NCBI GenBank assembly: GCA_002694685.1 | Contig: NZMW01000001.1 | Location: 1 to 64,000, forward strand | Direction: 5' to 3' | DNA length: 64,000 bases | From: Balneola sp. | Lineage (GTDB): Bacteria; Bacteroidota; Rhodothermia; Balneolales; Balneolaceae | Shown: piece after piece, positions 51,770-57,246 of the stretch | Layout of the letters: each line of letters opens with the position of its first letter | Position numbering within the stretch: the first letter of the stretch is position 1 | The notes under the pieces: model-generated | The model's input: the letters and a program-made list of their open reading frames with translations, nothing else | The model's database searches: none | What the model was told of the DNA's origin: nothing | Position numbers and translations under genes: made by a program

Positions 51770-52154
51770 TTATGAAGGAAGTGTAGTAAGAAGTACGCTT
51801 TTAGCCTCGGGTGTTTTACTGATTATTTCTTTAGGATTTTTTGCAATAGGTGAAAAAGAAGGAATTGCGGTTTTGACCGGAGTCATGCTCAGCTGCATCT
51901 TTGTAGTCAGCAGTGCATGGGTGTTTGACACCTTCCGAGGAGTGAAAACCAACCGGTTTATAAAAATATTTTTCATCTCTACAGCCATCCGCTTTCTGTT
52001 AGTGCTCATTTTGTTCGGAATTTTGCTTGGAGTGACAAAAATTGATGAAATCTACTTTACAGTTAGTTTCATAATTTCCTATCTTTGCCAATCTGTAACG
52101 GAAATGATTTTAATTAACAAAATTCTTCAAAAGAGCGGCACTAAAAGACAATGA
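51759..52154 (+). CDS. atpI: AtpI-like ATP synthase accessory membrane protein
   Basis: A 131-residue protein with four predicted helices (about 10-30, 34-56, 70-90, 98-118), including RFIKIFFISTAIRFLLVLILFGIL. The size, four-helix topology and place before atpB match AtpI, a c-ring assembly factor. Sequence conservation is low in this family, so the name rests partly on context. It overlaps atpZ by 11 bp and atpB by four bases. Confidence 0.7.
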   Translation: MINNYEGSVVRSTLLASGVLLIISLGFFAIGEKEGIAVLTGVMLSCIFVVSSAWVFDTFRGVKTNRFIKIFFISTAIRFLLVLILFGILLGVTKIDEIYFTVSFIISYLCQSVTEMILINKILQKSGTKRQ

Positions 52155-53224
52155 TTCAAACCCTGCGTCGAGTTTTCTTAACTCTTTTATTCTTAAGTAT
52201 CAGCACTTCAAATACTTTTGCGGCAGATCAGGCCGAAGGTGAGGAAGAACCTATTATTGACGTGATGGGTACCGTTCTTGATCACGATTATTTTAAAACA
52301 CCGTTTGGTAAAATCTACTTACCACGCATCTTTTATTGGGAAGATGCAGAAGGTCAGGCGCAGCTAAGTGCTTTTGCCTCAACCAAGAAAGCTGTCGCTT
52401 CTGAGAACTTTGAATTGTCAGAAGCAGGTGCAGTAGTTCCTGTTAATGGTGGGCATATTTCTTTAGATCTATCTATAACCTCTCACTTGATCTATTTTTG
52501 GCTCAGTATTGGACTGGTTCTCTTTATTACAATAGGGATGTCCAGGAAGTATAAAAACGGAATTGGTAAAGACACCGAGCCGCAGGGAGCATTTCAGAAT
52601 ACCTTTGAAGTACTATTCCAGTTTGTGAGAGATGACATCGCTAAGGATAATATCCGCGATGACAAATATGAGCGTTATGTACCATACCTATTCTCAGTAT
52701 TCATGGGTATTGCTTTTATGAACTTATTTGGGCTTTTGCCTTGGGCTGCTACTGCCACTGCTGATTTAACAGTTACAGCGACATTAGCAATTATCACATT
52801 TTTAATAACTCAGTTTAGTGGGACAAAAGACCACTGGGCTCATGTATTCTGGTTTCCGGGCGTGCCGGGCTGGACTCGTTTCATTTTAACTCCTGTTGAA
52901 GTGCTTGGTTTATTCACTAAACCATTCGCTCTTGCAATTCGACTTTTTGCAAACATGTTGTCAGGAAAGATGATGATCATCGCGATTTTAGGGTTGATCT
53001 TTATTTTTGCTGATCTGTTTGGGCCTATTGGTGGCTACGGAATGGCAGGACTTTTATCTGTACCTCTAACTGCAGCTTTATATTTCTTGAAAGCATTTGT
53101 GGCTTTACTGCAGGCTTATGTGTTCACAATTCTTTCAGCCGTATTCATTGGGATGGCTGCTGAAGATCATGAGCATGATGAGGAAGGATATCACGCAGAG
53201 CATATTGCTGAACAGGCAAATTGA
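52151..53224 (+). CDS. atpB: ATP synthase F0 subunit a
   Basis: A 357-residue subunit a with a signal-like N terminus (about 1-25) and an extra periplasmic region of about 85 residues, as seen in Bacteroidota. The essential Arg is R264 in KPFALAIRLFANMLSGKMM, which forms the proton half-channel with the c ring. FGLLPWAATAT and the ILSAVFIGMAAEDHEH tail are other family features. The next gene encodes the c subunit. Confidence 0.95.
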   Translation: MIQTLRRVFLTLLFLSISTSNTFAADQAEGEEEPIIDVMGTVLDHDYFKTPFGKIYLPRIFYWEDAEGQAQLSAFASTKKAVASENFELSEAGAVVPVNGGHISLDLSITSHLIYFWLSIGLVLFITIGMSRKYKNGIGKDTEPQGAFQNTFEVLFQFVRDDIAKDNIRDDKYERYVPYLFSVFMGIAFMNLFGLLPWAATATADLTVTATLAIITFLITQFSGTKDHWAHVFWFPGVPGWTRFILTPVEVLGLFTKPFALAIRLFANMLSGKMMIIAILGLIFIFADLFGPIGGYGMAGLLSVPLTAALYFLKAFVALLQAYVFTILSAVFIGMAAEDHEHDEEGYHAEHIAEQAN

Positions 53225-53249
53225 ACTTGAAAAAACCATAATCAACTAA

Positions 53250-53483
<234 letters not shown>

Positions 53484-53499
53484 TATCGTGTTACACTCT

Positions 53500-54012
53500 A
53501 TGCTACTTTTAGCAGGCGGAGGGGGATTACTCTCATTTAACACAGGCTTTGCCTTGTGGATTGCTATCACAATGGTGGTTTTCATCTTGTTGATGGCAAA
53601 ATTTGCAGTACCCCCTATTATGAAAGCGCTTGAGGAGCGAGAGTCAAAAATCAAGGATTCCCTGGAATCCGCTGAGAATGCATTAGCGAAAGCTGAGAAA
53701 ATCTCTAAAGATAATGAGAAAGCTCTTCGAGAAGCAGAAGTAAAAGCACAACAGATTCGTAAAGAAGCAGTAGAGGAAGCTGAATTAATTCGTGCAGAAC
53801 GGATTAAGAAAGCCAAAGAAGAAGCTGAACAACTCGTTGAGCAGGCTCGCACCTCTATTGATCAAGAAAAGAAACAAGCTTTAGTTGAACTGAGACAAGA
53901 AGTGGCAAAACTTGCCGTACAATCAGCTTCTATTATCATTGACGCAGAGCTTGACAGTGAAAAGAATAACAAGCTGGTAGATAAATTTTTATCTGACCTT
54001 CCAAAAAATTAA
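53500..54012 (+). CDS. atpF: ATP synthase F0 subunit b
   Basis: A 170-residue protein with one N-terminal helix (about 10-38, FNTGFALWIAITMVVFILLMAKFAV) and a long charged coiled coil that forms the peripheral stalk connecting F0 to the delta subunit. A GTG at 53488 gives a start four codons longer; ATG 53500 was preferred. It lies between c and delta genes as expected. Confidence 0.9.
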   Translation: MLLLAGGGGLLSFNTGFALWIAITMVVFILLMAKFAVPPIMKALEERESKIKDSLESAENALAKAEKISKDNEKALREAEVKAQQIRKEAVEEAELIRAERIKKAKEEAEQLVEQARTSIDQEKKQALVELRQEVAKLAVQSASIIIDAELDSEKNNKLVDKFLSDLPKN

Positions 54013-54021
54013 TAATAATTC

Positions 54022-54570
54022 ATGCTGGTATCTAAAGCGGCACGCCGTTACGCTACTGCACTACTGGAGCTTGCCAAAGAGCAAGATGTTGTAGAGTCCA
54101 CACTTGAGGATATTCTTTTTGTTAAGACTACCCTAGAGGATTCTCGAGATCTGGTTCTTTTCTTAAAAAGCCCCATTATAAAGCCAGACAAGAAAGTTTC
54201 TGCTCTTGAAGAAATCTTCAAATCAGAGATCAGTGAATTGGTTCACAGGTTCATAACGTTGATTGCACGTAAAAATCGACAAAATGTACTTGATGAAATC
54301 GTTACTGCCTTTGTTGAAGTTTACAATGAGTACGCTGGTATTATTTCAGCTGAAGTATTTGTCGCTACTAAATTAGATGACAAACAAATTGCTGCGGTTA
54401 CCGAGAAGCTGGAAGAGGTTACCGGTAAGAAAGTAAATGTCACTATAAAAGTGCAGGAAGATTTGAAAGGCGGAATGGCCATTAAAATAGCAGATACAGT
54501 TATTGATGGTACCGTTAAGCACCAGTTGGAACAGCTTGAAGATGTATTCCTGAATACAACTACGGAATAA
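54022..54570 (+). CDS. atpH: ATP synthase F1 subunit delta
   Basis: A 182-residue delta/OSCP subunit with the family start VSKAARRYATALLELAKEQ and the C-terminal motif LKGGMAIKIADTVIDGTVKHQLEQL. It links the b-stalk to the alpha/beta head. It sits 9 bp after atpF. Confidence 0.94.
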   Translation: MLVSKAARRYATALLELAKEQDVVESTLEDILFVKTTLEDSRDLVLFLKSPIIKPDKKVSALEEIFKSEISELVHRFITLIARKNRQNVLDEIVTAFVEVYNEYAGIISAEVFVATKLDDKQIAAVTEKLEEVTGKKVNVTIKVQEDLKGGMAIKIADTVIDGTVKHQLEQLEDVFLNTTTE

Positions 54571-54600
54571 ATTACAACAGTTTTATAATCTAACATTACA

Positions 54601-56211
54601 ATGAGTCAAGTCAGACCAGACGAAGTTTCAGCCATACTACGTAAACAATTATCAGGCTTCGATAATGAAGCTGATACTTATGACGTGGGTACCGTACTCG
54701 AGGTAGGAGACGGTATTGCACGTGTGTATGGGTTATCAAAAGTACAAGCAGGTGAATTGGTTGAATTACCTGATTCTAAGGATGAAAAGGGTGCTTCCAT
54801 AACAGGAATGGTACTTAACCTTGAGGAAGACAATGTAGGTATTGTACTCTTTGGGTCATCCGAAGCCGTAGAAGAAGGCCATACCGTTAAAAGAACCAAA
54901 GATATCGCTTCTATAAATGTGGGCGAAGGTCTGCTGGGACGAGTTATCAACCCTCTTGGTGTACCTATCGATGGTAAAGGTGCTATAACCGGCGAAACAA
55001 TTCGTCTACCGCTTGAGCGTAAAGCTCCCGGGGTAATTTATCGTGAGCCGGTAACAGAGCCTCTTCAAACAGGACTCAAATCAATTGACTCATTGATCCC
55101 GATTGGACGAGGTCAGCGTGAACTTATCATTGGTGATCGTCAGACTGGTAAAACTTCTGTAGCTGTAGATACTATTATCAACCAGAAAGCTACTCAAGAC
55201 ACTGACAAACCCGTTCACTGTATTTATGTAGCTGTTGGACAGAAAGGTTCAACCGTTGCTAATATCCAGAAAGTATTGGAAGAGAACGGTGCCATGGAAT
55301 ACACTACGATTGTAGCTGCTCCTGCCAGTGTTTCAGCTCCAATGCGTTATATCGCTCCATTTGCAGGTGCTGCTATTGGTGAGTATTTCCGTGATACAGG
55401 CCGTCATGCTCTTGTAATCTATGATGATCTTTCAAAGCAAGCTGTTGCTTACCGTGAGCTTTCATTATTGCTTAAGCGTCCTCCTGGCCGTGAAGCATAT
55501 CCTGGTGATGTATTCTACCTTCACAGTCGTTTATTAGAGCGCGCTGCTAAAATCATTAATGATGATAAGGTAGCTGGCGCTATGAACAACATCCCTGACG
55601 AATTAAAGCCAAAAGTAAAAGGTGGTGGATCATTAACTGCACTTCCTGTTATTGAAACACAGGCCGGTGATGTTTCTGCTTACATCCCAACCAACGTAAT
55701 TTCTATTACTGATGGTCAGATCTTCCTGGATACAGACTTGTTTAACCAAGGTATTCGACCCGCTATTGATGTTGGTACTTCGGTATCTCGAGTAGGGGGT
55801 TCTGCTCAGGTGAAATCAATGAAGAAACTTTCAGGTACTCTGAAGCTTGATTTGGCTCAGTACCGTGAACTGGAAGCTTTTGCAAAATTTGGTTCCGATC
55901 TTGATGCTTCAACGCAAGCTCAACTTCGAAAAGGAGAGCGTACTGTTGAACTACTGAAGCAGGATGTTTATCAGCCACTTCCGGTAGAGCAACAAATTGC
56001 ACTTCTCAAAATCAATGATGTTGGTTTGCTTGATAGGCTTGAAGTAGAGCAGATTGAACAGTTTGAAAACCAATACCTTGAAACTGTTGGCATCAAATAC
56101 GAAGATGAAATGCAGAAACTTGCTGACTCAGGTATTCTGGACGATAGCTTCGGTGATAATCTCATTGAGATTGCAAAATCAGTAATCGATCAAGTTACAG
56201 CATCTAACTAA
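54601..56211 (+). CDS. atpA: ATP synthase F1 subunit alpha
   Basis: A 536-residue alpha subunit. Walker A GDRQTGKT is at 178-185, with the characteristic [23 protein letters not shown] and the [29 protein letters not shown] segment. It binds nucleotide non-catalytically; the catalytic beta subunit gene is not in this operon. The gene is 30 bp after atpH. Confidence 0.97.
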
Positions 56212-56229: not shown

Positions 56230-57126
56230 ATGGCGAACCTCCGAGACATACGAAACCGGATATCATCTGTAAACAACACGCAGCAGATTACCAAAGCTAT
56301 GAAAATGGTAGCTGCTGCCAAGCTTAGAAAAGCTCAGGACCGCATGACACAAACGCGTCCCTATGCTTCTAAGATTGAAGAAGTTGCAGGCCGTTTAGCA
56401 GAAAATAGCAGTGCTACAAACCCTGTTATGCGTAAGCCTGAAGAAGTTAAGAAGGTATTATTCATTATTGTTGGTTCTGACCGTGGACTTTGCGGCGGAT
56501 TTAACAATAATTTGTTTAAGGAAGTTGAAAAACGGCTAGAACGTGACTTCCAACAGTTTCTAGAGAAGAAGACATTATCAGTTGTAGCTATAGGAAAGAA
56601 GGCAACGGCCTATTTCAAGAAAAGGAAATATAACGTTGTGGAAAGTTTTCCAGGCTTCTTTGATGATATTTTGTATGATGCTACTTCCGATATTATGGAA
56701 GCTGCTACTGCTCAATTTGTAGATGGTGATTATGATGAAGTGCACATCGCATACAACGAATTTAAGTCAGTGATTGCACAGAATCGTAAAGTACAGAAGG
56801 TACTTCCGATAGATACAGCTGAAATCACAAAAAGTGATTCTGATCATGCATCTGAGCAAGCTATTGATTACCTTTACGAGCCAAATTCACAGGCGATATT
56901 AGATCGTCTCTTGCCACTGCATTTAAACATGCAATTATGGCGAGCAGTACTTGAGTCTAACGCATCTGAGCAAGGCGCACGAATGACCGCAATGGACAGT
57001 GCGACTGAAAATGCTAAAGATCTTGAAAAAGACCTGAGACTCAAATACAATCAGGCACGACAAAGTGCTATTACGACTGAAATTTCTGAAATTGTTTCTG
57101 GTGCGCAAGCACTTAGTGAAGATTAG
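56230..57126 (+). CDS. atpG: ATP synthase F1 subunit gamma
   Basis: A 298-residue rotor shaft with the N-terminal helix RDIRNRISSVNNTQQITKAMKMVAAAKLRKAQ and the C-terminal EQGARMTAMDSATENAKDLEKDLRLKYNQARQ pairing helix. The last base of its TAG stop (57126) is also the first base of the tRNA-Ser, so the operon messenger runs directly into the tRNA. Confidence 0.96.
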   Translation: MANLRDIRNRISSVNNTQQITKAMKMVAAAKLRKAQDRMTQTRPYASKIEEVAGRLAENSSATNPVMRKPEEVKKVLFIIVGSDRGLCGGFNNNLFKEVEKRLERDFQQFLEKKTLSVVAIGKKATAYFKKRKYNVVESFPGFFDDILYDATSDIMEAATAQFVDGDYDEVHIAYNEFKSVIAQNRKVQKVLPIDTAEITKSDSDHASEQAIDYLYEPNSQAILDRLLPLHLNMQLWRAVLESNASEQGARMTAMDSATENAKDLEKDLRLKYNQARQSAITTEISEIVSGAQALSED

Positions 57127-57212
57127 GAGAGCTGGCAGAGTGGTCGAATGCGGCGGTCTTGAAAACCGTTGAGGCCTCGCGGTCTCCGGGGGTTCGAATC
57201 CCTCGCTCTCCG
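57126..57212 (+). tRNA. tRNA-Ser (anticodon UGA)
   Basis: An 87-nt class II tRNA. The acceptor stem GGAGAGC (57126-57132) pairs fully with GCTCTCC (57205-57211), with discriminator G57212. The anticodon stem-loop has CTTGAAA as loop, so the anticodon is TGA (57160-57162). A long variable arm (GAGGCCTCGCGGTCTC region) and the T-arm GGGGGTTCGAATCCC complete the cloverleaf. CCA is not encoded. The first base is shared with the atpG stop codon. Confidence 0.95.
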
Positions 57213-57216
57213 CAAT

Positions 57217-57246
57217 AAATAGCCCCTTTTGGGGCTATTTCTGTTT
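57217..57246 (+). terminator. Intrinsic terminator after tRNA-Ser / ATP synthase operon
   Basis: A perfect 10-bp stem AAATAGCCCC (57217-57226) and GGGGCTATTT (57231-57240) with loop TTTT, followed by CTGTTTT. It lies 4 bp after the tRNA discriminator base and would end the ATP synthase transcript. Confidence 0.88.

Follow-up and report, generated by a model that had tools for sequence, protein, structure and literature searches.

Background

Transfer RNA genes of bacteria may lie in protein-coding operons and are then released from the shared transcript by RNase P, e.g., in thrU-tufB and secG-leuU of E. coli. In these two examples, the stop codon is separate from the tRNA, and cleavage leaves a full stop on the messenger. 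A different situation is described for human mitochondria, where cutting at tRNAs leaves coding sequences that need an added A for their stop codon (PMC9674279). For E. coli arfA, nonstop mRNA is reported to arise through a terminator and an RNase III site inside the open reading frame, the gene being held down by trans-translation, and its trans-translation as a nonstop message is reported to cause zntR, which lies upstream, to be degraded by PNPase (PMC10107115). Among the titles and abstracts of open-licence PMC papers, none was found to describe a bacterial tRNA that starts on the final base of the preceding stop codon, and nothing was found in the open-licence PMC literature on atpG together with tRNA-Ser. 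Such a junction is described here for Balneola sp., in a window (i.e., the whole stretch of DNA analysed, 64,000 nt in length) covering positions 1 to 64,000 of contig NZMW01000001.1 (GenBank assembly GCA_002694685.1).

Genomes and loci

For comparison within the order, 128 Balneolales genomes were searched, of which 117 contained an atpG match. Two of these (G072 and G124) were left out as they carried N-terminal atpG pieces only, and the remaining 115 genomes provided 116 loci for comparison. No tRNA was detected in 11 of the 116 loci; nine of these had an early contig or gene end (31–467 nt downstream, or no stop reached), and the other two had 688–699 nt of downstream sequence. In two of those nine, L111 and L116, the start of the tRNA was readable before the contig end and was not called by ARAGORN. 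As an outgroup sample from the same class, 20 of the 72 atpG-matching members outside the order were fetched, with at least one per family f6–f20. The number of tRNAs in the Balneola genome itself was 39 with ARAGORN and 40 with Infernal.

Structure of the atpG/tRNA-Ser(UGA) junction

The gene for the ATP synthase gamma subunit, atpG, occupies positions 56,230–57,126 of the window on the plus strand and encodes 298 amino acids. Upstream in the same gene run and on the same strand (52,151 to 56,211) lie open reading frames which, judging by their translations, we take to be atpB (from 52,151), atpE (from 53,268), atpF (from 53,488), atpH (from 54,022), and atpA (54,601–56,211). The atpG stop codon, TAG, is located at 57,124–57,126 (+), and its third base, G57126, is at the same time base 1 of tRNA-Ser(UGA), where it pairs with C57211. 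The tRNA was found at 57,126–57,212 (+) by Rfam RF00005 (56.3 bits compared to a gathering score of 29), and ARAGORN reported it at 57,126–57,213 with anticodon UGA. Its acceptor stem of seven base pairs, GGAGAGC/GCUCUCC, was also present in the folded transcript, the stability of which exceeded that of shuffled sequences (z = −2.84); the discriminator is G57212, and CCA is not encoded. An intrinsic terminator stem-loop at 57,217–57,240 (+), formed by AAATAGCCCC-TTTT-GGGGCTATTT and followed by a T-rich tail, begins 4 nt past G57212 and would close the atp–tRNA transcription unit. Both the overlap and the position of the terminator can be read directly from the sequence, and the claim of the preliminary description that the tRNA begins on the last base of the atpG TAG is exact to the base by sequence, ARAGORN, and Rfam alike, as is the placing of the terminator 4 bp past its 3′ end. 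Across the junction, at 57,125–57,130, the end of the stop codon and the start of the tRNA read AGGAGA, which resembles a Shine-Dalgarno sequence, probably by coincidence.

Within this genome, tRNA-Ser(UGA) is the only one of 39 tRNAs (ARAGORN) to overlap an upstream open reading frame on the same strand, the next closest gap being 32 nt. Serine is served by one tRNA gene each for GCU, GGA, and UGA, and as tRNA-Ser(UGA) is the sole copy of its kind found in the genome, it is presumably essential.

Conservation of the gene pair and of the overlap

Among the 103 Balneolales loci having at least 600 nt of sequence downstream of atpG, 101 carried tRNA-Ser(UGA) there on the same strand, and in two genomes of genus g26 (G071 and G082) no tRNA was found within about 690 nt after atpG. 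In the outgroup (L238–L257), tRNA-Ser(GCU) followed atpG in 14 of 20 loci, four of which (L241, L246, L247, and L256) carried tRNA-Ser(UGA) behind it, whereas at this site Balneolales keep the UGA tRNA only. The presence of a serine tRNA downstream of atpG is therefore older than the order.

The one-base overlap was found in 10 loci from nine genomes, i.e., in eight of the ten genomes of the genus and in G015 of another genus, and the stop codon was TAG in all ten loci. Conservation of the junction in relatives, which had been proposed as a check, was thus confirmed, and a chance arrangement or a mis-assembly was ruled out by its recurrence in nine genomes. The closest named match was a Balneola sp. 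MAG with an AtpG 81% identical to that of the window. One assembly, G009, contained two different atpG–tRNA contigs (L009 and L118; AtpG 79% and 80% identical to the query), and since L118 clustered tightly with G002 on the tree, this assembly may mix two species.

Offsets between atpG and the tRNA formed a continuum of 0, 2, 3, 4, 5, 6, 7, 9, 10, and upward, with offsets of 25 and 20 in the two remaining genomes of the genus (G003 and G004). The preliminary description had spoken of a tRNA fused to the end of the ATP synthase operon; as a one-off event, such a fusion does not hold, the gene pair being an old one with gaps of many sizes, among which this junction is one extreme. An atpG tree of 35 rows required at least three changes between overlap and gap and would fit either a gap regained in the G003/G004 clade or repeated loss of the gap elsewhere. 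These data bear on whether the overlap has any use of its own. A reasonably likely account, compatible with joint transcription and RNase P release (see below), is that compaction was neutral, the one-base overlap marking the limit of deletion and the resulting nonstop end having no regulatory use. The continuous series of offsets would be expected from it, as would the repeated changes on the tree and a clade within the genus at offsets 20–25; what it explains less readily is that exactly one shared base was kept in eight of ten genus genomes whose AtpG identities to the window's protein span 78–91%.

Termination and promoter signals around the tRNA

At the Balneola junction, the tRNA lies downstream of atpG in the same orientation with no terminator between them, as expected of a co-transcription unit. 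With one base shared by the two genes, a terminator cannot fit between them, and polymerase that reaches the end of atpG must therefore continue into the tRNA; this arrangement implies co-transcription as long as transcription does not stop within the translated atpG. Of 103 loci across the order, 72 had a terminator-like site within 70 nt past the tRNA. In the atpG–tRNA gap itself, the same criterion, which misses about 30% of the expected post-tRNA sites, found no terminator in any of 27 loci whose gap measured at least 40 nt, compared to 21 of 33 loci with gaps above 30 nt which had one past the tRNA (Fisher p ~ 5e-8). Taken as an estimate, this 0 of 27 suggests that transcription of the atp operon continues into the tRNA even when the gap could hold a terminator.

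As to promoters, PMC7366714 gives TAnnTTTG as the −7 consensus recognised by the Bacteroides sigma factor. This motif occurred within 70 nt upstream of 19 of the 39 tRNAs of the Balneola genome (background in the window: ~0.045 per 70 nt per strand), further tRNAs had close variants, and a TAnnTTT(G/A) box preceded most of the other tRNA units. In loci L197–L236, this box was often followed after 2–3 nt by a G + C-rich start, e.g., GCCCTT, mostly 17–42 nt upstream of the tRNA, an arrangement reminiscent of stable-RNA promoters in which the discriminator is G + C-rich. A further TAnnTTTG-type box, TATCTTTG, is located at window position 52,080, about 71 nt before the start of atpB, and might act as a promoter within the atp operon; at 10.1 bits, it is one of 12 sites of this strength on the same strand of the window.

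No comparable signal was seen before tRNA-Ser(UGA). With a matrix built from the other tRNAs, the best score in the 70 nt upstream was 1.4 bits (p = 0.31), and the best TAnnTTTG-type score in 900 nt of atpG was 4.6 bits, which is within noise (90% null quantile for a 70-nt stretch, 4.7 bits). These scores, together with the absence of terminators from the 27 long gaps, make RNase P release from the atp messenger the best reading. The rival reading, in which the tRNA has its own promoter hidden in the 3′ part of atpG and operon read-through is minor, is considered unlikely, and several lines of comparative evidence bear on it. Boxes at p < 0.05 preceded the same tRNA in 16 of 27 loci of families f2–f5; in Balneolaceae, they were found in 12 of 23 loci with offsets above 40, in 1 of 29 with offsets of 11–40, and in none of 26 with offsets up to 10. 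A simple TAT-type pattern just before the tRNA behaved similarly (24/27 in f2–f5 compared to 0/26 in Balneolaceae with offsets up to 10). We infer that an own promoter of the tRNA was probably ancestral, a point in favour of the rival reading, and that it was lost where the gap shrank, a pattern which speaks against a hidden promoter in atpG. In the other overlap species, TAnnTTTG-type hits were modest, lay mostly 400–660 nt upstream, and were not common to all ten loci.

Conservation of synonymous sites was considered as a second source of evidence. In the last 15 codons of atpG, synonymous identity was 0.69 compared to a gene mean of 0.54, i.e., slightly high as a promoter under constraint might make it, and other segments of the gene reached up to 0.78. 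Third bases near the end of atpG vary in the overlap species, with a CTN codon at −4 showing all four, and therefore no hidden box appears to be held fixed at the would-be position. An E. coli-like sigma-70 match, TTGAAA-17-TACAAT, at 57,023–57,051 would also suit a hidden promoter; as four such sites were found and 3.9 expected, the sigma-70 scan was set aside as promoter evidence. A hidden promoter in atpG thus remained unsupported by both the matrix scan and synonymous-site conservation, even with the last 15 codons above the mean.

Another candidate was the element TTTATTGA, which could be a different type of promoter. In Balneolaceae with offsets of 11–40, it was found 12–21 nt before tRNA-Ser(UGA), exactly in 7 of 29 loci and with up to one mismatch in 16 of 29; there were five exact sites in the 64-kb window on both strands. 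The element was absent before the tRNA in the one-base-overlap species. It was also observed upstream of tRNA-Gly(GCC), tRNA-Val(GAC), tRNA-Asn, and tRNA-Glu in the Balneola genome and is enriched before tRNAs. As a promoter it was rejected since, in the Gly, Val, and Asn cases, it sits downstream of a TAnnTTTG box. It resembles a leader element and may be one for leader processing or else a second promoter type.

The preliminary description had argued that there is no space for a separate promoter unless inside atpG and that the tRNA is probably cut out of the operon messenger by RNase P. The missing terminator room, the lack of a TAnnTTTG-type box in atpG, and the frequent presence of the box in relatives with more room all lend weight to this, the absence of a promoter being one at the level of sequence.

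Probable RNase P release and its predicted effect on the atpG stop codon

The junction is quite likely an mRNA–tRNA co-transcription unit from which the tRNA is cut by RNase P, leaving a nonstop atpG mRNA. RNA polymerase would read through atpB-E-F-H-A-G into tRNA-Ser(UGA) and halt at the terminator just beyond. RNase P would form the 5′ end of the tRNA by cutting between A57125 and G57126 (+), the position predicted from the 7-bp acceptor stem, and 3′ trimming and CCA addition would complete the tRNA. Since the tRNA starts on the last base of TAG, cleavage at this position would take the G of UAG and leave an atpG messenger ending in …GAU UA without a complete stop codon. Full-length AtpG would then come mainly from ribosomes terminating before the cut, and later ribosomes would stall at the 3′ end of the atpG mRNA and need rescue by tmRNA/SmpB, both of which are encoded in this genome. 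Only one protein of the PolyA_pol family was found, and this same protein is the candidate CCA enzyme.

Loss of the stop codon through the RNase P cut was absent from the preliminary description, which had instead proposed that terminating ribosomes tie tRNA output to atpG translation; the former, predicted from the junction, is the firmer of the two. In the latter, ribosomes terminating on atpG would shield the acceptor stem and hold back RNase P, thereby regulating the tRNA, which is compatible with RNase P release and appears distinctly improbable as a regulatory device. The geometry would permit it, as the footprint of a ribosome with UAG in its A site extends about 10 nt into the tRNA, i.e., its edge lies over approximately the first 10 nt, and the overlap is present in nine genomes. 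However, translation termination is fast relative to RNA lifetimes, and relatives with offsets of 15–40 keep the gene pair without such occlusion. It is possible that occlusion orders events, with termination first and cutting after.

If RNase P release operates as proposed, a free-living bacterium would provide a clean natural case in which each tRNA produced is expected to cost a core energy gene its stop codon. In a far-reaching version, maturation of an essential single-copy tRNA would amputate the atpG stop so that every processed atp mRNA is nonstop; the message would then be repaired by A-tailing or removed through trans-translation and exonucleolytic decay. The amount of ATP synthase obtained from a messenger would in this way be limited by each tRNA-Ser(UGA) cut from it, a bacterial form of tRNA punctuation. 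This version is regarded as doubtful. The sister genomes may serve as controls, since they carry the same gene pair at offsets ranging from 0 to over 500 nt, and a promoter box is present in some of them and missing in others. The system makes it testable whether RNase P processing limits the expression of a tRNA-carrying messenger and whether bacteria complete a stop codon by A-tailing.

Comparison with known systems

The Balneola locus resembles bacterial mRNA–tRNA co-transcripts in that the tRNA is on the messenger, no promoter of its own was found, and the terminator is located past the tRNA. In the examples named above, the stop is clear of the tRNA and complete after the cut, whereas in Balneola the final stop base belongs to the tRNA as well. 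In this respect, the locus is closer to the tRNA punctuation described for mitochondria, where a tRNA abuts the coding sequence and the RNase P cut leaves an mRNA with an incomplete stop, the Balneola cut being a predicted one. If the Balneola messenger were A-tailed, UA and one A would read UAA as in mitochondria. Unlike in the mitochondrial account, in which polyadenylation supplies the stop, the uncut Balneola transcript has a full UAG, A-tailing would be a hypothetical addition, and a tRNA would punctuate one gene only (one overlap among 39 tRNAs, next gap 32 nt). As described for arfA, processing inside the open reading frame would give a nonstop mRNA; the action of tmRNA would be expected, decay of upstream genes would be possible, and the rescue system for an arfA-like control is present with both tmRNA and SmpB. 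The two differ in that Balneola has RNase P and a tRNA in place of the RNase III and terminator of arfA, and in that its open reading frame is a housekeeping ATP synthase subunit whose stop codon would be shortened by just one base, the last. The Balneola junction may thus be regarded as a known type of mRNA–tRNA co-transcript, here with a mitochondria-like consequence for the stop codon.
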